Of a stretch of 64,000 nucleotides of DNA, positions 18,387 to 64,000 are shown in pieces. Location: contig OY821777.1 in the NCBI GenBank assembly GCA_963682175.1, positions 5,163,501 to 5,227,500 on the forward strand, given 5' to 3'. Below the pieces are notes generated by a model, which ran no database searches, was not told where the DNA came from, and saw only the letters and a list, made by a program, of their open reading frames with translations. Each line of letters starts with the position of its first letter. Position 1 is the stretch's first letter. The position numbers were made by a program, and so were the translations under genes. The stretch comes from Triglochin maritima (lineage: Eukaryota; Streptophyta; Magnoliopsida; Alismatales; Juncaginaceae).

Positions 18387-18696
18387 GGATGGAACTAGAG
18401 AAGAAGGGTGTCGCGGAACCGAATTGGCTCGGGGTTTGGAGTTATTTATTGAGTCCTTATACACGGACGCGGGCGTCACGGACGCGCCTTACGTGGACGT
18501 GTTGAGTCAGCGTCCAGTCAGTAAAATTTCTCTTCACGTGCTTTGGTCTTCTTAAAAACGCCGGTTCTTTAGGTTGAACGATTCTTTTCCCAATACACAG
18601 ATAGTGCAGACCCTAGGACAGCGTGCAGACCCTTTATTCGTGCAGAGTTCAGACTTATCATAATAAAATATTATTTTTAACTTTTAGGTTGGATCA

Positions 18697-19363
18697 ACTT
18701 AATCCAAACAGACACACAACATATTCCGAACAGACAGTCTTCTTATTCCGAACAGACGCACAACTTAATCCGAACAGACAGACTTCTTATTCCGAACAGA
18801 CACACAACTTAATCCGAACAGACACACAACATATTCCAAACAGACACACAACATATTCCGAACAGACACACAACTTAATCCGAACAGACACACAACTTAA
18901 TCCGAACAGACACATAACTTAATCCGAACAGACACACAACATATTCCGAACAGACAGACTACTTATTCCGAACAGACATACTTCTTATTCCGAACAGAAA
19001 GACTTCTTATTCCGAACAGACATACTTCTTATTCCGAACAGAAAGACTTCTTATTCCGAACAGTCAGACTTCTTATTCCGAACAGACATACAACATATTC
19101 CGAACAGACAAACAACATATTCCGAACAGACAGACTTCTTATTCCGAACAGACGCACAACTTAATCCGAACAGACACACAACATATTCCGAACAGACAGA
19201 CTTCTTATTCCGAACAGATGCACAACTTAATCCAAACAGACAGACTTCTTATTCCGAACAGAAAGACTTCTTATTCCGAACAGACAGACTTCTTATTCCG
19301 AACAGACACACAACATATTCCGAACAGACTGACTTCTTATTCCGAACAGACATACAACTGCTG
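18697..19363 (+). repeat. 22-bp minisatellite in first Mutator-like copy
   Basis: About 30 units near the consensus ATTCCGAACAGACAGACTTC plus TT, alternating with a variant containing ACACACAACTTAATCC. Unit sequences are highly similar, and both unit types recur in the second Mutator-like copy. Confidence 0.9.
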
Positions 19364-19731: not shown

Positions 19732-20275
19732 AGCACAGAGGTAGGACCACAGAAGAGAAGGGAAGAAAAAGGAAGACGCATGTTGAGATTTATAACAAGT
19801 CTCTTGTGCTGTGTAGGAGAGCCAAAATGTTCATGGAAAATGAGTGATTTGAGACGCATTAATGAGGGATGGAGGGATGTAGACATTTGTACGAAACGAG
19901 GAATAAAATAAAAAATAAACTTTTTCTGTGGAGACTGCCAACTGAAACGCGTCTGCTGACTGGGCTGACCACATAAGCGCGTGTCCCGAACGCTAGCGTC
20001 CGCTAATCGTTTTCCTTATTTATTGGGTCCTTATACACGGACGCGGGCGTCCGTGACGCCCGCGCCTTACGTGGACGTGTTGAGTCAGCGTCCAGTCAGC
20101 AAAATTTCTCTTCACGTGCTTTGGTCTTCTTAAAAACGCCAGTTCTTTAGGTTGAACGATTCTTTTCCCAATACACAGATAGTGCAGAACCTAGGACAGC
20201 GTGCAGACCCTTTATTCGTGCAGAGTCCAGACTTATCATAATAAAATATTGTTTTTAACTTTTAGGTTGGATCAA

Positions 20276-20960
20276 CTTAATCCAAACAGACACACAACAT
20301 ATTCCGAACAGACGCACAACTTAATCCGAACAGACAAACTTCTTATTCCGAACAGACACACAACATATTCCGAACAGACACACAACATATTCCGAACAGA
20401 CACACAACTTAATCCGAACAGACACATAACTTAATCCGAACAGACACACAACATATTCCGAACAGACAGACTACTTATTCCGAACAGACAGACTACTTAT
20501 TCCGAACAGACATACTTCTTATTCCGAACAGAAAGACTTCTTATTCCGAACAGACATACTTCTTATTCCGAACAGAAAGACTTCTTATTCCGAACAGACA
20601 GACTTCTTATTCCGAACAGACACACAACATATTTCGAACAGACAAAACAACATATTCCGAACAGACAGACTTCTTATTCCAAACAGACGCACAACTTAAT
20701 CCGAACAGACACACAACATATTCCGAACATACAGACTTCTTATTCCGAACAGACGCACAACTTAATCCAAACAGACAGACTTCTAATTCCGAACAGAAAG
20801 ACTTCTTATTCCGAACAGACAGACTTCTTTTTCCGAACAGACACACAACATATTCCGAACAGACAGACTTCTTATTCCGAACAGACGTACAACTTAATCC
20901 GAACAGACACACAACATATTCCGAACAGATAGACTTCTTATTCCGAACTGACATACAACT
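20276..20960 (+). repeat. 22-bp minisatellite in second Mutator-like copy
   Basis: About 31 units of the same CCGAACAGACA-containing repeat as at 18,697-19,363, with the unit types in a different order. This shows independent expansion or contraction after the two copies separated. Confidence 0.9.
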
Positions 20961-21335
20961 GTTATACATGAAGAAAATGAAGAAGAATGTGATCATTCCT
21001 ACATTTTTAAGGATGACTTTGGTCTTGTTTGTTGTATATGTGAAATTACACGCAAAAGCATAGAAAGTGTGTCCAGAAACGGAACAGAAAGTTTGTATTA
21101 TTTATGTAGAAAGATTGTCTTGTTTATGTAGAAAATTTGTCTTGTTTATGTAAAAAGTTTGTCCAGTTTATGTAAAATGTTTGTCCAGATTATGTTGAAA
21201 ATTTGTGCAGAAATGGAACATAAAGTATTCCGAACATACACACCACTTAATCCGAACAGACAGACTTCTTATTCCGAACAGACACACAACATATTCTGAA
21301 CAGACTGACTTCTTATTCCGAACAGACATACAACT
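20961..21335 (+). repeat. Extra internal duplication in second Mutator-like copy
   Basis: The sequence after the minisatellite (tgaagaaaatgaagaag.. to gcaaaagcatagaa, about 20,967-21,062) recurs at 21,341-21,439. Between them lie short tandem units with TTTATGTAGAAAATTTGTC (about 21,090-21,210) and five further minisatellite units (21,226-21,335). The first copy lacks this segment. Confidence 0.75.
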
Positions 21336-24010: not shown

Positions 24011-25351
24011 TTACAACAGAACAACCAAACACAAAAACTCGATCACCAGCACAACACACCGGCGGCAAGACCAGCTACAACCCCCACCTCCAACAACACT
24101 CAAACCAATCCCTTCCGACGACCTCAAAGTCTCATTCCTCTCCCTCCCACCACACCTGGGCAACCCCTCGTACCCCATCGGAACAACACACAGCCCTTTG
24201 TTCCCCTTCACGTCCAACCTCATCCCGAGCCGCCTCACGAACCCTTCCTCGAACCTCACCTCCCCGGACAACTCATTCTGACTGAGATTCAGCTCCCCAA
24301 GCCGTTCCAGCCCACCCAACCCCTCCGGCACTCCCCCACTCAACTTATTCCTATCCAACGTCAACGCTGTTAGCTTTTTCAGACCTACTAACGACACCGG
24401 TATCCGACCGCGAAGGCCGCATCCTGACATCCCCAGCACGGCCAAATTCCCCATCTTCCCTACGAATCCTGGAATGGTCGTGTTCATGGGGTTGTTGTCG
24501 AGCACCAAGTACTCCAACGACCCGTTTAGTGCCACCAAGTTTGCGGGTATGGGACCTGAAATATTGTTGCGGCTCAAGTCGAGGAGGACCAGAGTCGAAC
24601 CTAACTTGTCCGGGATCCGACCCGACAGCATATTCGAGCTGATGTCGATTTTCTGGATAAATTTCAACTTCCCAATGCTTCCTGGAATATGACCTCTAAA
24701 GGAGTTGTGGCTAAGATCGAGTATCTCGAGGTTGCCACTCCCACCGACGTCTCCGATCTCGTCCGGTATCGCACCGCCGAGATTATTATAGCTCAAATCC
24801 AGCTGCCGGAGGTTAGAAAGATTCCCAATCCCACGTGGGATCGACCCCCGGAGATTGTTCTGCGACAAGGTGAGCACTCTAAGAGTGGATCCCAACTTCG
24901 AGATGGCGTCCGGAATCGCCCCGGTGAGACCGGGGTTGGAGCTGAGGACGAGCTGCTCGAGGTTGGACTCCGGCGAGAAGAAGGCGGAAGGGAGAGTGGA
25001 GTTGCGCGACACGAAGCAGTGGGAGAGGGAGAGGGACTTGAGGAAGGGAAGTTTGAGGAGGAGAGACGGAGGGAGTCCGGCGGAGGGTTTGCACGGGGTA
25101 TCGTGGCCGACGTGGAGATGGGTGACGTGGAGGGTTGTTGGGTTGGTCACCGTCGACTCACAGAGAAGGCCCGGGTAGGGCGTGGCGGTGCAAGGTTCCG
25201 GGTGGAGATCCGGCCAGGTGGGGTCGTCCAACAAGGATCCGATTACGTCGTAGAGATTGGTTAGTTCTTGGTTGTCCATCCGGTAGGGTTGGGCTGTGGT
25301 GGTGAGGAGGGTCGTGAGGAGGGTCGTGAGGAGGAGTAGAGGGATGGTCAT
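24011..25351 (-). CDS. LRR receptor-like protein, RLP29-type, intronless
   Basis: 446 residues in one exon. A hydrophobic signal peptide (1-20) is followed by an LRR N-cap region with Trp and Cys (DPTWPDLHPEPC, YPGLLCES). Then come about ten plant-type LRRs (LxxLxLSxNxLxGxIP), for example LRVLTLSQNNLRGSIPRGIG and LVLLDLSRNNISGPIP, and a closing Cys pair (GLCVVP..RCGG). The C-terminus is hydrophobic (VVLVIEFLCLVVLL) and there is no kinase, so the protein is a receptor-like protein or is lipid-anchored. The N-cap and the NNPMNTTIPGF segment resemble RLP29 / PII-2-like proteins. Such proteins usually act at the cell surface with a partner kinase; the ligand is unknown. GC content is much higher than in the flanks. 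Confidence 0.88.
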   Translation of the reverse strand: MTIPLLLLTTLLTTLLTTTAQPYRMDNQELTNLYDVIGSLLDDPTWPDLHPEPCTATPYPGLLCESTVTNPTTLHVTHLHVGHDTPCKPSAGLPPSLLLKLPFLKSLSLSHCFVSRNSTLPSAFFSPESNLEQLVLSSNPGLTGAIPDAISKLGSTLRVLTLSQNNLRGSIPRGIGNLSNLRQLDLSYNNLGGAIPDEIGDVGGSGNLEILDLSHNSFRGHIPGSIGKLKFIQKIDISSNMLSGRIPDKLGSTLVLLDLSRNNISGPIPANLVALNGSLEYLVLDNNPMNTTIPGFVGKMGNLAVLGMSGCGLRGRIPVSLVGLKKLTALTLDRNKLSGGVPEGLGGLERLGELNLSQNELSGEVRFEEGFVRRLGMRLDVKGNKGLCVVPMGYEGLPRCGGRERNETLRSSEGIGLSVVGGGGCSWSCRRCVVLVIEFLCLVVLL

Positions 25352-27510
25352 GGTGTTGTTGGGGGGATGGACGGTGAGGGTGGAGGCGTGAGGTGAGTTT
25401 GATGGGGTTTGTTTTGTTTCTACTTTAGGTGGTGTCTGGCGGATGTGACAGGGGTAGGCGAGTATTTATGGAACTGGAACTGGAACAGAAGAGTAGACCA
25501 CTGTGGTAGTTTGGTGTCATGGTGTGTGTGCGATGCTTGCCTCTTCTGGCTAGGGAAGAGAAGCAGAGTAACACTGTACTGTTCGGAATATGATACATCC
25601 CTCACCTATCAATGCACAAACATTTCCTATATATATATATATTTTGGATAAACAGATTATTCAAGTTAATTATAGGATTTGGCTATGAACCCCTATCTAA
25701 TTCTCAAAACCCATAGAAGCCATACAATCTAGACTGTCGTATAGATGTTAGATGATGTTTCCGTTGTGGTTTGCGAACTAATTTAGTTGTTACTTTACCT
25801 TATATGCCAGGAGTTTCTTCGTCTTAACTCAGGGATTTTAAACTCACTGAGAGAGAGAGAGAGAAAATGTAGGTTCTTGACTCTTTTGACAATCTCATTT
25901 TCCTCACCAAGGGCTGTAATTTGATTTCCATTCTCTAAAACAGGCAAATTTGACTTCCATTCTCTAAAACTTATGTATTTACATCGATTCTTCGATACAA
26001 TACCAATGCTTGAAAAAGATATCAAATGTAGTTTTCTTTCCGCTCCATTCTCTTGAATTTTTTGATTATCTTGGATACCAAATGATTACAATTTTATGCT
26101 TCTCTGGTGGAATAAGAGCCACGAAAGAAGAAATCATAGCAAAAGTAAAACAAACTGATTGAATCAGTTGTACTTTTCCTTGCTTAGCCGGCACTGATTT
26201 GAAAGATTTTGGACTTGAGTGCATGCAAGGAATATGCACTATTCTTATCTTCATAGAGAATCCCACTATACTATAATCTACGATAGACAAGTAAAATTAA
26301 CCTAACCTGCTTATTTTACTCATGCTTATCTTACTCATACCCAGTGACTTCTTAAAAATCAATAGATTTTTTTTTAAAATACTGTGAAAGATGCTTTCGA
26401 AAGCACAATAATTTGCAGGGCATTGCATGGTAGTGGGTCTGCTATAAGCCTAGAAAAGCTTTAAGCACTGGTCTTACGTCAACTATTTCTGGCAAAATCA
26501 CAAGAAATAAAATAAAAGTAACAAACAAGTCTCTGTTCATCATTCCTCACTTAACCAAAAGTCCAAAGAGGAAAAGCACCAGTCACTACGTACATGTGAA
26601 ATATTAGTGCCGCAAGTGTTGAACTCTTAGAGGTGAAGAACACCAGCAACTACTGCTAGTTTGTAGTACCAGTCTGAAATTTCCATTTTATTGCAACATG
26701 ACCCACCTTTGTTTGATCACAAATGTATGAAACAAAACTGTAGTATACACACGAGGAGTTGAGAGAAGGCGACGGTGGCAGATAGCAGTCGTGGTGTGTG
26801 AGTTCAATAAAGTGAAGAAGACAAAATGGTCAAAGATATGTTCAAAATGAGGCAAGACGTGATGTGATGGGACAGGACATCACAACACGTCCTACAGTCT
26901 TATGTTATACGCTTCATTAATAAGTCTCTCCCGGTTTTTTAGCAATGAACAGAAGATTACAATAAGAGATTTAGATGTTGGTTTTGGATGATGTATTGAC
27001 AAGATTGGAATCTTCGTAACACATCTCGGTCCAACTCGAATGATGCCTCCATTGATTGTTACATTATGGAGTTTGTGTTATACTTTAACTGGGATAAGCT
27101 CACAATTTAATATATATTTTTAGCAAGGTTTAATTGCATTCAAATAAAAGGTCTTATACGAGCCATGTAACCACAGCTCATATTACAAAAAGAGCAAACG
27201 CCTGCAGGGATAACCCCTAAAAACCAATGACCGGGATCATCAAGCCAGGCCCAAAATCAACAATGAGACCATCCAGACGCTTCCCAAAGCGCTCAGGTTC
27301 CTGTCCCCGTTCGCGGTAGTTACATCTGAATAGTGAGACTAATTGAAAAGTGTATTTACTTTTAGTGAGCTCCAATCGACAAGAATGTGTTTTCCCGGCA
27401 CCTAAAGAACCTAACAGGTCCTCTGTTTTAGCAATCTTCAGCATAGAGGTTCGATCCTTTTTTAATCCCAAAACAATTCATTCGTGGATTTTCCACTTGA
27501 AATAAATGGA
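25352..27510. other. Spacer, no gene supported
   Basis: Contains the promoter side of the LRR gene (from 25,352) and then AT-rich sequence without recognisable genes or repeats. A - strand frame at 27,217-27,471 is protein-like near its end (YRERGQEPERFGKRLDGLIVDFGPG) but could not be tied to a family. Confidence 0.4.
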
Positions 27511-32667: not shown

Positions 32668-33235
32668 TTAATGGTTACCGCCAGGGCTCGGACCAGAATT
32701 CTTGATCCATCCAAGAGTGCCAAGGAATTTGAAACCATGTCCTTCACCAGGACTCGGACCGGCATCCTTAATCCCACCAAGTGTGTCACTCAACTTGAAA
32801 TCATGCCCTTCACCGGGACTCGGACCAGCATCCTTAATCCCACCAAGTGTGGAAATCAATTTGAAACTATGTCCTTGGCCAGGACTCGGACCGGAATCCT
32901 TAATCCCACCAAGTGTATTGATCAATTTGAAAGCATGACCTTCACCTGGACTGGGACCGGAATTCTTAATCCCACCAAGTGTGTTAGATAACTGATAAGT
33001 ATGCCCAGCACCTGGACTCGGACCCGAATTCTTAATCCCACCAAGTGCGTTAGATAACTGATAAGCATGCCCATCACCTGGACTGGGACCTGAATTCTTA
33101 ATCCCACCAAGTGTATCAGACAACTTATAAGCATGCCCAGCACCAGGGCTTGGACCTTCGTGCTTGATCCCACCAAGAGTGTCAACCACCGGACTAGCAC
33201 TGGCATCCTTGACTCCATTCACGAATGCATGACCA
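32668..33235 (-). repeat. 66-bp tandem repeat coding for the peptide units
   Basis: Eight consecutive units of exactly 66 bp, recognisable by CCACCAAGTGTG / GGACTCGGACC on the + strand, lie inside the precursor gene. Units differ at scattered sites while the GPSPGxGH codons are kept, which suggests selection after duplication. Confidence 0.85.
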
Positions 33236-33408
33236 CCACCTCCTGGGCTAGGACCTGAATTTTTCACCGAGCCCAGAAACAATCGACTCCAAATCCCCCC
33301 TCCACCAATGGCTCCTTCCTGTAGCACCGCTAGTGGACGAGCACTTGAGCCAAGCACCGCCAAATTGGACACCACAATGACAACCAACGCCACTAATCTT
33401 ATGCCCAT
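32668..33408 (-). CDS. Secreted peptide precursor with nine GPSPG repeats (PIP-like)
   Basis: 246 residues in one exon. Residues 1-23 are a clear signal peptide (VALVVIVVSNLAVLGSSA). GPSPG motifs begin at residues 52, 85, 107, 129, 151, 173, 195, 217 and 239; the last eight are spaced exactly 22 residues apart. The typical unit is KNSGPSPGxGHxxxLxxTLGGI. SGPSPGxGH is the core of the PIP/PIPL (PAMP-induced secreted peptide) family, related to CEP and IDA peptides, which are cut from precursors, hydroxylated on proline and perceived by LRR receptor kinases. Most PIP precursors carry one or two cores, so nine is unusual. A decayed unit (SASP, about 70) sits in the one double-width gap. No receptor gene is next to it. 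Processing into nine peptides is inference. Confidence 0.82.
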   Translation of the reverse strand: MGIRLVALVVIVVSNLAVLGSSARPLAVLQEGAIGGGGIWSRLFLGSVKNSGPSPGGGGHAFVNGVKDASASPVVDTLGGIKHEGPSPGAGHAYKLSDTLGGIKNSGPSPGDGHAYQLSNALGGIKNSGPSPGAGHTYQLSNTLGGIKNSGPSPGEGHAFKLINTLGGIKDSGPSPGQGHSFKLISTLGGIKDAGPSPGEGHDFKLSDTLGGIKDAGPSPGEGHGFKFLGTLGWIKNSGPSPGGNH

Positions 33409-35140
33409 CTCTACAAATTAACTCACTACTTAAGCACGTAGATTAACTTTGATCTCTTGATAGGTAGGTATGATTGCCGAATATATGTTGTTGATGGATA
33501 AACTGGAGGGAACATATGTATATATAGAAGACAGATCTGTGGTATTCTAACACGTTTGGAAGAGCATGTCTGAAGAGGGTGGCTTTGAGGAAGTTGCATG
33601 GTGAGTTCATGCATGCAGTTGTTAGATGAAGAAAAACAAGGATCGGAAAGAAGTGGTTGAGTTGAAATTGTGAGCTTATGTGATGGCGTGGCCCGAAAGA
33701 ATAATATGCACTGTGGAACAGTGGAACTAAACAAGTTAGTTAATTGAGTGAGGGCTTGAGCGCATCCGGCTCCCGCCGCCACATGCAAGCATAAATCATA
33801 ATAAAGCCTTTTTTTGATAATATGGTAATCAAACTATAACATAGTTATCCATTGGTTAGGAGTCTACGATACCTTTTTTGAGGCTTCAATCCTTGATTAG
33901 ACTGCTTACTATTTTTTTTGACCCACGTGGCACGTTGGATTGATTATCTAACCTTCTTGAAATTTATTTTTCTTGCTTTGTTTGGGGATTAGGATGGTGA
34001 GCGCGATTAGTGAGGAAGAGGGTTTGCAATTGCACCTATACAGTTTTTTTTTTTTTGAAACCTTAGAAATTTTATGAGCTTGTAGACATAAATTATACGG
34101 AAGTTGTATCCATGTGTTTTGCCATAAATTCATTGAGGATAATTGCAAACTCTTGGTGCACACGTGGCATCAAAATCCAAGAAGTGCTTGCATTTGAAAA
34201 TTAATTTTCTTCTTGAATTTATATGTGGATTTGGTTATATGATATCTAATTAATATGTCATGTTTTTTTCTGCAATTCCAGTGTCTTGATTTTGTTATAG
34301 CCTTCGCTCATTGCTGGGTGTCAATAATATCTCTGTTAACAGAGGATGTAATTAGATGATATTTTGATATTTATGACTTATGAATTTAATTATGCCTGTA
34401 TGTCTACTTTCGAATATGACTTTCAAAGTTTGATCCTCAACTTAGTCCGAGCTAATTTGGAACTCGTAAGCAATTCCACGCCAGAATTAATTTTTTCTTT
34501 TGAATAAGATGTTAGATGTTTGTTTACCATTTGCACTACTAAATTCCTTATCACGAGAAACATTTTTTAATGTGTTTGGCAAATGTTAAGTTTCTTTATT
34601 AACCCTCGTCCCTCAAAGTGGTGCAAGCAGACAAGTAGTAGTCAGAGTAGTTGAGACCTGAGCTGAGCTTAGTAATACTTTGAAATAATTAAAACAATGA
34701 AGTGAGGTTGGATACTTGGATCAAAGAGCTTTTGTCAATACAAAATTTAGACCAAACTCCATAGCAAGAAAAGGAGAGTCTGATTTTCTTTGTCCACCAC
34801 AATGTTGTGGACTACTCCAGTCTTCTCAGATTTACAGAACGAATTGGGGGTGTCCGAAGTATTAAGCAAGTAATGACTCCCGATAATTGTACAGAACGCA
34901 AGATTGTTTAGATAAATGGACACCCACGTAGGATACCACCTGTAGTGCAAAGCTAATAAAAAATTCTGGTCGTATTTGGCCAGTTGGTCAACTATCTATA
35001 GAAAAGAGTCAACAACAATGTAAGTGATTTATCTTTTAAATTTTGATTGCTTTGTGCTGATGAAGATGGGTTATGGTGTTTTTAGTTTGAACAAGTGCGG
35101 TCCACGTAGGATTCGGGACTTGTGTTTTTTCTTCGCATAA
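33409..35140. other. Promoter side of the peptide gene and spacer
   Basis: A TATA-like stretch (GTATATATAG, about 33,518-33,527) lies about 110 bases before the peptide gene's start on the minus strand and is a plausible core promoter. The rest is AT-rich with no recognised gene. Confidence 0.4.
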
Positions 35141-59473: not shown

Positions 59474-62117
59474 AAGTGTTTCATCACTGGTGAATCTCAG
59501 AGTGCCCCCACTCATCATCGATCCACCTCAGAAAAAAACCAAAACCAAAAAAATCCCACCACTCATCACCTTCGTCTTTCAAGGGGGTTGAAGGAGACAA
59601 AACAAACCCCGACATCCAAAACCCCTGAAGGAAAAATAAAAAATGGCGGACTCAGAAACAAACGCTCCAAAACTGGTGTCACAGTTGCTCAACGGACAGA
59701 ACTATCTGTCTTGGGCACGGGCTGTTACGCTAGCTCTCAGCGGGAAGGGAAAGCTGGGACACATCACCGGGACAGCAAAAAAACCAGAGGAGGATGCCAC
59801 CGAAACAAAACAAGAAGATGGGCAGGCGACAGACCATCTTGTAATGACATGGATAATCAACTCCATGACATCCAAAATCGGGGCTATCTTCCTTTACAAA
59901 AATTCCGCAAAGGAGCTATGGGACGTCGTTCAAAGCATATACGGTAAAACCAACAACTTTGCTCACATTTTTAAACTAAAACACGATCTGTCACAGACAA
60001 AACAGCAAGGACAAACAATCACGGAGTATCTCGGGACACTGCAGCGTGGATGGGACGAGCTCGCCATCTACGAACCCACGACTGCTGACCCAAAAATCCT
60101 ACTCGAACGAAAGGAGCGAGATCAAATCTATCAGTTCCTCATCGGACTCGACGGCAGCTATGAAGCCATCCGAAGCCAAGTCTTGATGACCCCCACAGTC
60201 CCTGATCTCGCATCCATCATCGCGATGATCCAACGGGAGGAATCCCGTCGGACCACCGCTCAGATCGCGGACCGATCTTCAGAAAACCAGGCGTTCTTCG
60301 CCGGAAAACACCAAAATCAGACAAGAAAATACGGAAATAAACCTCAGGAAACATGTGACAACTATAAAAAGACCGGGCACAACAGGAACTCATGTTGGTT
60401 CCTACACCCTCATCTTCGACCAACACGGGAATGAGGTGATCATCGGAACAAAAAAAGGAATGGCGGACCAAAAGGAAACAGCGCGGCGGCAAACCCTAAC
60501 GCAGAAGAGGAACAAAGAAAATGGGAAGGCGAATCGATTATTCGCTCGGATCCGCGAGGTTTTATAACCTCACGTGATTTGGTCGGATCCGGGTTGTCTT
60601 TAACCCGACCCGAAATAGGGATCCGACCAGATGCTGCAACCGCCGGACCCGGATCCAGCTCCAGATCCGACCCGATTCCACTAGACCAACTGCTGGGCCA
60701 CCTCAGCGCATATTTGCAGTCCACCCCTCAGGGTTCAGGTAATTGCGCAGGTATATCCTCTTGTTCCAGAAATTACTCTGCCAACAAAACAGGAAAAAAT
60801 CTTAGACATATAAATAATAATCAATGGATAATTGATTCCGGTGCTACTGATCATATGACCGGAAATTCTAGTCTAATAAGGAAAATAAAGAAACATGTGA
60901 ACTCTCTTCATAATTTTGTGACTGTTGCAAATAATAATCAAGTAGAAATAAAAGGGATAGGAGAAACCACCATATTAGATCAAGTAAATAAAAATGTTTT
61001 ATATGTACCTACTTTCACCTCTAATCTTCTTTCAGTATCAAAAATCACACAAAATTTAAATTGTAATGTTATATTCACCCCTAATGATGTATTCTTTCAG
61101 GAGCGAACTACAGGGAAGACGATTGGTAAAGGGATTCATACCAATGGACTTTATGTTTTAGAGGCTCAAAACAGGAGTTTTCATACTACTAGTTTACCAA
61201 ACCATATTCTATGGCACAAACGAATGGGACACCCATCTCCTTTGGTTTTAAAAACGTTATTTCCTTTTATTTCTTCTGATTATGCATGTGATGTTTGTCA
61301 GTATTCTAAACAAACTAGATTACCCTTTTTTAACTCTAAAACCAAATCAAGTGTTCCTTTCAAAATAGTTCACTCCGATATTTGGGGACCCGCTCCTGTT
61401 GAGTCTTACAACGGTTTTAAATTTTTTGTGCTATTTATCGATGATTTCTCACGAAATACTTAGACCTATCTTCTCAAAAACAAATCCGAAGTTTTTCAAG
61501 TTTTTTGCGATTTTACAATTTTTGTTGAAAACATGTATGATTTTAAAATTAAGACCTTAAGGACAGATAACGGGACCGAATACACCAGCCACAACTTTCA
61601 AATTTTTTTGAAAAATCGGGGAATATTACACCAATTAACATGTATACACACCCCTGAACAAAATGGAGTCTCGGAACGGAAAAATCGCCATCTTCTAAAT
61701 GTAACAAGGTCATTGCTCTTTCAAAATCATGTTCCCAAACGATTTTGGTCTGACGATATCTTAACTGCGACTTATCTAATAAATCGTCTTTCTAGTCCTA
61801 CTCTTCAGAATAAACAATCACTTGAGATACTCTTAGGACGAAAACTAACCCTAGATCATCTTAAAATCTTCGGGTGTGTATGCTTTGTTCATAAGAAACG
61901 CTTAGATAAATTTGATAGCAATGCTGTAAAATGCTTATTTCTTGGTTATTCTTTTCAAAAAAAAGGGTATAAATGCTTTGACCCTGAATCTTGTAAAATG
62001 TATATCTCCCGGGATGTAATATTTAGGGAAACTGAACCCTACTACAACCCTACAACACAATCTTGTCCAGACTCCTCACAAGTTCTACCTGAGTTCAACA
62101 TCAAAGCTCACGAACAA

Positions 62118-62226
62118 GGAGAAGGAGAAAAAGAAGGACAAGAACAAGGAGAAGGACAAGGAGAAGGACACGAAGAAGGAGAAGGACAAGGAGAAGGACA
62201 AGAAGAAGAAGAAGGACAAGGAGAAA
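62118..62226 (+). repeat. GGAGAAGGACAA-type repeat coding an EGQ-rich linker
   Basis: A 12-bp purine-rich unit and variants repeat about nine times between integrase and reverse transcriptase. It codes runs such as QGEGQGEGHEEGEGQGEGQ. The frame is kept because the unit is a multiple of three. Confidence 0.85.
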
Positions 62227-63917
62227 CAAGAGCTCCAACCCCAAGGAGGTCTACCCGACCAAAACGCCCTCCCACTAGGTTTAATGATTTTATCACCTCT
62301 CAAGTAACTTATCCCATTCAGAACTACCTCACCTACAAACAAATACAACCAAACTATAGGGTTTTCCTAAACCAAATAAGCGAAACCCTAGAACCAAAAA
62401 ACTTCGAAGAAGCTAGTAGCAATCCTAAATGGCAAAAAGCAATGCGAGAAGAACTTAAAGCCCTAGAAACCAACAACACTTGGACTCTCATCCCTAGACC
62501 AAATAAAACAAAACCCGTTGGATGCAAATGGGTTTACAAAATAAAATATAATAGCGATGATACTATCGAAAGGTATAAAGCTCGCCTTGTAGCAAAAGGG
62601 TATACTCAAACCTATGGGCTTGACTACCTAGAAACCTTCGCACCAGTAGCAAAAATGAATACTGTTCGGGTTCTTCTTTCCATAGCAGTTAACAAGGGAT
62701 GGAAGCTTTATCAAATGGATGTCAGAAATGCTTTTCTTCAAGGCACCCTTGAAGAAGAAGTATACATGGTACCCCCTCCGGGTTACAACACTTCTCCCAA
62801 CCAGGTATGCAAACTCAACAAAGCCATCTATGGCCTAAAGCAATCACCCCGCGCATGGTATGCAAAACTTAGTCACTTTCTTCTTGCTTATGGTTTCTTT
62901 AAATCCTCTGCTGACGCATCTATGTTCACTAGGCATCATAAAGGAGAGATTGTCATAGTCTTGGTCTACGTAGATGACATCATCATTACTGGTGATAATA
63001 ATGAACAAATTACTCAAGTTAAACACTATCTAAAAACCAAATTTGATATAAAAGATCTAGGATTCCTAAAATATTTCTTAGGAATAGAAATTGCATACTA
63101 AAAAAGGGGTCTATTTTTATCACAAAGAAAATATGCCCTAGACCTCTTAAAAGAAACAGGAAAACTTGGGGCTAGACCAGCTAGTACACCCATTGAGGCA
63201 AATCTCAAAACCAGTCCAACCGACGGTGAACCTATTAGAGACATTCACCAATACCAAAGACTTGTAGGAAAACTTATATATTTAACCGTGACCAGACCCA
63301 ACATTACCTTTGCTGTTAGTATAGTAAGTCAATTCATGCATGCACCTCGAACATCACATTTAGATATTATTGATAGAATTCTGAGGTACATAAAACAAAC
63401 ACCAGGACAAGGGTTGCTAATGAAAAATAACAATTCTAACAACATCATCGGTTTTTCAGATGCTGATTGGGCAGGAAGCCATGATCGTAGGTCAACTACC
63501 GGTTTTTGCACATTTGTTGGTGGAAATCTTGTTACTTGGAGAAGTAAGAAACAAAAGGTGGTTGCTCGATCAAGTGCAGAAGCAGAATATCGAGCAATGG
63601 CGTCCACCACCAGTGAACTCATTTGGTTAAAGCAACTTCTTCACGATATGGGTCAAACTCACACTAAAGCTATGAATATGTTTTGCGACAACAACGCCGC
63701 ACGACACATTGCTTCCAACCCCGTGTTCCACGAAAGGACCAAACACATTGAAGTTGACTGTCACTTCATCCGTGAGAAGATTCAAGCTGGAGAAATAGAA
63801 GTTCCATACGTCCCCAGTAAAGAACAATTGGCGGACGTCTTCACCAAAGCCCTAAGTAAACAACCGTTCGACACCATCATAGTCAAGTTAGGCACCTACA
63901 ATCTCTTCCAGACCCAA

Positions 63918-63929
63918 CTTGAGGGGGAG
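63918..63929 (+). promoter_or_regulatory. Polypurine tract of the copia element
   Basis: TTGAGGGGGAG directly precedes the TG of the 3' LTR at 63930, the expected place for plus-strand priming. The gag-pol stop codon overlaps the first bases of the LTR. Confidence 0.85.
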
Positions 63930-64000
63930 TGTTGAAATATGCAAACACACCTCTTCACCAACATGCAACGCACCTCCTCGTCAACCATCGCGTCTTCTCC

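Follow-up and report, generated by a model that had tools for sequence, protein, structure and literature searches.

The minus strand of the window (the whole 64-kb stretch of Triglochin maritima DNA that was analysed) contains an open reading frame of 246 codons, at positions 32668-33408 with its ATG at 33408. It encodes a constrained, nine-core precursor of the hormone type, richer in repeat units than any of the 142 relatives with which it was compared. We consider it likely that the product is a secreted multi-core hormone precursor at the border of the PIP2-like and group II CEP (CEP-II) families, which would be cut into hydroxyproline-bearing peptides for the receptors RLK7 or CEPR2. Tandem-repeat precursors of this design are common among flowering plants, and the kind is already known, having been described in part for legumes (PMC9739355). 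The features of the locus, with the cores read directly from the sequence, are as follows.

33520-33526, minus strand: TATA-box-like TATATAT, 118 bases upstream of the ATG (pattern match only)
32668-33408, minus strand, stop codon included: multi-core PIP/CEP-II-like prepropeptide of 246 amino acids (translation and homology)
33340-33408, minus strand: hydrophobic leader, residues 1-23, putative signal peptide (sequence and hydropathy)
33337-33339, minus strand: Arg24 of the ARPL motif (SARPL) directly after the leader (motif shared by relatives)
33229-33258, minus strand: core 1, SGPSPGGGGH, with one extra Gly, so that two residues separate SGPS and GxGH
33181-33216, minus strand: candidate decayed core GVKDASASPVVD in the interval between cores 1 and 2 (translation, by eye)
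33133-33159, minus strand: core 2, EGPSPGAGH (Glu replaces Ser)
33067-33093, minus strand: core 3, SGPSPGDGH
33001-33027, minus strand: core 4, SGPSPGAGH
32935-32961, minus strand: core 5, SGPSPGEGH
32869-32895, minus strand: core 6, SGPSPGQGH
32803-32829, minus strand: core 7, AGPSPGEGH (Ala replaces Ser)
32737-32763, minus strand: core 8, AGPSPGEGH (Ala replaces Ser)
32671-32697, minus strand: core 9, SGPSPGGNH, abutting the stop codon
32413-32418, minus strand: AATAAA polyadenylation-like signal, 249 bases past the stop (pattern match only)

Translation of the minus strand places GPSPG at residues 52, 85, 107, 129, 151, 173, 195, 217 and 239, exactly as originally predicted. The spacing is 33 residues once and then 22 residues seven times in succession, which agrees with the exact period proposed for the last eight motifs. 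Among 20,000 residue shuffles the mean number of GPSPG motifs was 0.008, with a maximum of one per shuffle. At the DNA level, Tandem Repeats Finder reported a 66-base period with 7.7 copies over the array. The further claim of a nine-fold SGPSPGxGH holds for GPSPG, found in all nine cores, but the complete motif is present in only four (cores 3 to 6). SGPS occurs in six of the nine cores, EGPS or AGPS in the other three, and GxGH in cores 1-8; the C-terminal core 9 ends in GGNH, a one-residue departure. A six-frame pattern search of the window detected no unit beyond the array, and two lone SGPS strings outside it. The leader has a mean hydropathy of 2.03-2.95 across its first five 15-residue windows, the first 20 residues being strongly hydrophobic, and its cleavage would be expected near SSA/RPL. 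The protein is repetitive and probably unfolded.

In addition to the flanking signals listed above, an ATTAAA pattern lies 28 bases past the stop codon (pattern match only). Upstream of the gene, no enrichment was found for W-box, TGAC, as-1 or auxin motifs. Five G-box/ABRE-like ACGTG sites occur in the 1 kb upstream (33409-34408), against 1.34 per kb window-wide (Poisson p 0.012); because five or more sites are present in 22 of 630 one-kb bins, this excess is only suggestive and is not counted as evidence. The precursor matched the Pfam family HTH_49 below threshold (E 0.016; 15.7 bits versus a cut-off of 27), and this candidate was rejected. Among solved structures the best match had an E value of 0.081. 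The window gave no Rfam match at gathering score, and a scan for bacterial promoters and terminators, whose models are not apt for a plant, remained near background.

Several other elements were observed in the window. Arrays of a 22-base unit (CAACTTATTCCGAACAGACACA) are located at 18695-19359, 20273-20960 and 21226-21335, the first two with a 66-base higher order, and a distinct 22-base array occupies 21086-21206. On the plus strand, 59640-63935 comprises four consecutive one-frame open pieces, each ended by one stop, which resemble a Copia-type retrotransposon polyprotein. A receptor-like-protein gene with an open frame lies at 24011-25465 on the minus strand; its relatives (120 listed, best identity 55%) are named receptor like protein 29-like or Piriformospora indica-insensitive protein 2-like. 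In a tree whose sequence set was without early-diverging angiosperms, this gene sits on a long branch that joins the monocots (96/92). AU tests rejected its grouping with eudicots (p 0.041) and did not reject grouping with magnoliids (p 0.053) or the monocots without the Triglochin row (p 0.128), and its monocot placement is weak.

Constraint on the precursor was analyzed by Nei-Gojobori counts over its seven full units (2 to 8; 32737-33177, minus strand); core 1, which carries an insertion, and unit 9, which is truncated, were left out. At the eight fixed positions of the core, pS is 0.51, pN is 0.055 and dN/dS is 0.07, a ratio that becomes 0.16 when the two variable positions of the core are included. 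The corresponding values for the linker are 0.58, 0.328 and 0.39, its dN/dS thus also being below 1. In a permutation that runs over columns, the pairwise counts being non-independent, the difference between core and linker had a p of 0.011 for pN and of 0.37 for pS. The original prediction had described the cores as more alike than the linkers, had proposed this comparison of synonymous and non-synonymous change between units, and had named an unexpressed gene whose cores change no slower than its linkers among the refuting cases; across the seven units the cores change more slowly.

The LGGIK segment ahead of the core showed zero replacements across the seven units, and may therefore belong to the ligand or to its cleavage site; its pS is 0.07. 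Within LGGIK, L, both G and K are each encoded by a single codon across all seven units, and so are the His and the first Gly of the core. The longest run common to the seven units is CTTGGTGGGAT, whereas other synonymous sites of the core and linker differ widely. The fixed LGGIK codons could represent a seed of unequal exchange or a constraint at the DNA level. Tandem duplication would have given rise to the units, and the 92% DNA identity of units 3 and 4 is expected from a recent event of this type. The order of duplication was not simple, since unit 6 is closer to unit 8 (88%) than to the adjacent unit 7 (82%).

A whole-protein search detected 83 proteins at E <= 0.001 among 7996 scored candidates, and a family profile built from ten of these yielded 693 matches, 120 of which were listed. 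Among the matches listed, those named by organism derive from flowering plants, namely eudicots together with Persea and Aristolochia, and include legume proteins such as P0120 (pea); none bears a monocot name and none is the Arabidopsis PIP2 sequence. Matches annotated as PIP2-like include P0008 (5.2e-27), P0017 (1.7e-22) and P0029 (6.5e-21). By whole-length comparison, the best relative shows 45% identity across 87%, a distance that counts against the preferred explanation. In total, 15 of the 142 retrieved relatives are named PAMP-induced secreted peptide and two CEP16, while others bear automatic misnomers, e.g., glycine-rich protein. One of the matches, P0058 from Tanacetum coccineum, is a multi-core precursor running into sequence named as a ty1-copia retrotransposon protein, either a gene-model fusion or an insertion.

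The number of units was determined with a 15-residue unit profile constructed from 68 units of relatives (no filters, domain score > 0). The original prediction had proposed a search of related genomes for unit number; across the retrieved proteins, the profile matched 141 of the 142 relatives, with 2 to 8 units each and a mode of four (2, 3, 4, 5, 6, 7 and 8 units in 7, 47, 62, 15, 5, 4 and 1 relatives, respectively), versus nine in Triglochin, the highest number. The relatives contain at most five exact GPSPG motifs against nine in the Triglochin precursor, at most five strict core patterns against eight, and at most eight loose core patterns against nine. The lead is therefore large for perfect cores and just one unit once degenerate cores count. 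Selection by similarity and by length (candidates spanning 0.55 to 1.75 query lengths) biases the set, in which short precursors with one or two cores are therefore under-represented. Of 398 intervals between cores in the relatives, 278 measure 22 or 23 residues. The L-G-G-I-K residues ahead of the core are kept at 61-79% in 393 cores of relatives; for the first Gly of the core the figure is 98% (P, S and the last G being fixed by the search pattern). The last core forms the very C-terminus in 93 of the 142 relatives, and an ARPL-like motif is present in 120. Four relatives, P0002 (Paulownia), P0004 (Forsythia), P0005 (Eucalyptus) and P0008 (Hibiscus trionum), share the LGGIKxSGPSPGxGH unit, a similar period and the leader motif. 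The linker differs, being A/S/T/D/G-Y/F-K/Q-L in Triglochin and most commonly K-F-T-N in multi-unit relatives.

The extra units might be neutral, forming a coding minisatellite that expands and contracts around one or two working cores. Such a reading, which we judge rather unlikely, would account for the 66-base array of 7.7 copies, the range of 2 to 8 units among relatives, the off-consensus cores in some of these and the single decayed core, identified by eye, in Triglochin. Against it, GPSPG is kept in all eight later cores, and the core and LGGIK residues are kept in seven units despite a core pS of 0.51, unlike passengers; the intact cores are therefore held to be useful. That the product is a secreted structural or cell-wall protein with repeats that stay uncut is very improbable in view of its homology to named precursors, its ARPL motif, the core abutting the stop codon and conservation that centres on the ligand motif, although it is repetitive and rich in Gly and Pro, and automatic names like glycine-rich protein occur on some relatives. 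An equally slight chance is assigned to a silent or dying gene copy. Cores 1, 2 and 9 are indeed off consensus and the best relative is distant, but the frame is open across 246 codons, the cores are constrained (dN/dS 0.07), and the TATA-like and polyadenylation-like patterns are plausibly placed.

The assignment of the precursor to a family is less straightforward. PIP/PIPL precursors are described as having a conserved Arg after the leader (PMC4526919), which corresponds here to Arg24; SGPS and a C-terminal GxGH are likewise found, apart from the GGNH of core 9, as is homology to PIP2-like-annotated proteins. In PIPs, two residues are reported to separate SGPS from GxGH, and in CEPs a proline (PMC9532867). 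In Triglochin the two-residue spacing occurs only in core 1, the others having one residue (P), and for this reason the precursor is not filed as a PIP proper. The described mark of a CEP-II domain is Pro9 and Pro11 without Pro4 or Pro7 (PMC9739355). Units 2 to 9, numbered back from the last residue (His15), show this pattern, with Pro9, Ser10 and Pro11. The VPSPG(V/I)GH ending reported for Arabidopsis group II CEPs (PMC12494267), as in CEP13-15, is not found in the cores, which read GPSPGxGH with A, D, E, Q or G as x. Eight cores are consequently CEP-II-like by Pro9/Pro11 yet bear SGPS or nearly so, and core 1 is PIP-spaced. On shared motifs and hit lists, the precursor would be filed with the PIP/CEP-II border family of legume proteins, and in neither family proper. 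The original PIP-type reading is supported in part: homology, the hydrophobic leader, the family Arg and core constraint favor a multi-core precursor of the hormone type. By the published marks (PMC9739355) most cores are CEP-II domains, a family that had not been considered.

A strictly multi-domain group II CEP precursor, mainly perceived by CEPR2 and wrongly labelled PIP, is the most credible alternative, though we would not favor it. Pro9, Ser10 and Pro11 without Pro4/Pro7 in units 2 to 9, the one-residue separation of SGPS and GxGH in eight of the nine cores, the two relatives named as precursors of CEP16-like and the classification of the tomato peptide TLGGIKAGPSPGEGH as a CEP (PMC10515272) are all consistent with it. 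On the other hand, Arabidopsis group II peptides have VPSPG(V/I)GH and not GPSPG (PMC12494267), SGPS is reportedly lacking in Arabidopsis CEPs (PMC4526919), PIP names outnumber CEP16 names among the 142 relatives by 15 to two, and core 1 has PIP spacing. A more elaborate proposal, which appears improbable, is a ligand-mixing polyprotein in a monocot or early-diverging angiosperm. Its one PIP-spaced and eight CEP-II-spaced cores, with S, E or A before GPS, would be co-released and prefer distinct receptors (RLK7, CEPR2), and one gene would then govern how much of two signals is made and in what proportion. No such precursor from monocots or early-diverging angiosperms appeared in the literature examined, and one report on wheat came across no PIP or CEP of the multi-domain type (PMC9532867).

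Under the preferred explanation, a secreted precursor at the PIP2-like/CEP-II border, the gene would be expressed and the leader would direct its product into the secretory pathway, where prolines in the GPSP core may be hydroxylated. Proteases would cut before or within TLGGIK and again behind each core's His, to liberate as many as nine peptides of ~12 to 16 residues, (TLGG)IK-N/D-S-GPSPG-x-GH. The cut after His would be needed by internal cores and not by the C-terminal one, which counts against this explanation. For the released peptides, the predicted receptor is RLK7 or CEPR2 (class XI LRR receptor kinases), with a possible role in stress, immunity or root signalling. Extra units probably contribute more to the yield of one ligand than to its diversity. 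More cores may provide more ligand, although one report describes no enhanced activity for genes with several TDIFL domains (PMC9532867).

The family to which the precursor belongs is based on tandem repeats of ~22-23 residues, in 2 to 9 copies, and lies between two hormone families with a disputed border. Its unit number provides a natural series to test whether copies per precursor raise the dose. Moreover, LGGIK, which may be a segment of the ligand or of its cleavage site, is missing from the 13-residue synthetic PIP peptides.

Among known systems, the 11 Arabidopsis prePIP/PIPL proteins are reported to carry one SGPS motif in eight cases and two in three (PMC4154866, PMC4526919). The original statement that known precursors usually have one or two cores thus applies to Arabidopsis. 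As a general contrast it does not hold, since 141 of 142 relatives have 2 to 8 units and legume precursors up to four (PMC9739355). Precursors of the PIP/CEP-II type with more than four domains were not encountered in the text passages of the papers examined. Arabidopsis prePIP2, prePIP3 and prePIPL1 resemble the Triglochin protein in their leader, the Arg after it and repeated SGPS, but have two cores versus nine (PMC4154866, PMC4526919). In the Arabidopsis PIP2 peptide, two residues separate SGPS from GxGH, versus one in eight of the nine Triglochin cores. The activity of prePIP1 is reported to require its leader and SGPS motif, with RLK7 as receptor (PMC4154866), and a hydroxylated AtPIP2 peptide based on the sequence VKHSGPSPSGPGH was active (PMC10704477). 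Arabidopsis group II CEP peptides are described as signalling via CEPR2, with Pro9 and Pro11 hydroxylated (PMC12494267).

Close parallels are pea PsCEP20-24 and Medicago MtPIP8, likened to the Triglochin precursor by shared motifs, in which a single secreted precursor carries several domains, some CEP-II-like and others PIP-like (PMC9739355). Such mixing is described for PsCEP20, 22, 23 and MtPIP8; PsCEP22 has two domains of each type, and its authors regard the family border as blurred (PMC9739355). These proteins have at most four domains, against nine in Triglochin, of which eight are CEP-II-spaced and one PIP-spaced. TIPTOP of Nicotiana benthamiana is likewise secreted, PIP2/PIP3-like and composed of tandem sGPSPGxGH, with two repeats versus nine cores; it is induced by Phytophthora and was called PIP-like despite sGPSPGxGH (PMC5427549). 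Several copies of a ligand in one secreted precursor also characterize Arabidopsis CEP9 (five motifs) and multi-domain CLEs (PMC4526919, PMC9532867), which belong to other ligand families. In tomato, SlCEP11, a CEP according to its authors, has two homologous domains per precursor against nine in Triglochin (PMC10515272). Sprayed at 5 uM, its 15-mer TLGGIKAGPSPGEGH, from which Triglochin units 7 and 8 differ by one extra Asp, made plants more tolerant of drought (PMC10515272; SlCEPb of the methods is taken as SlCEP11b of the results). The activity of this peptide supports that of an LGGIK-containing form, and not its being the natural form.
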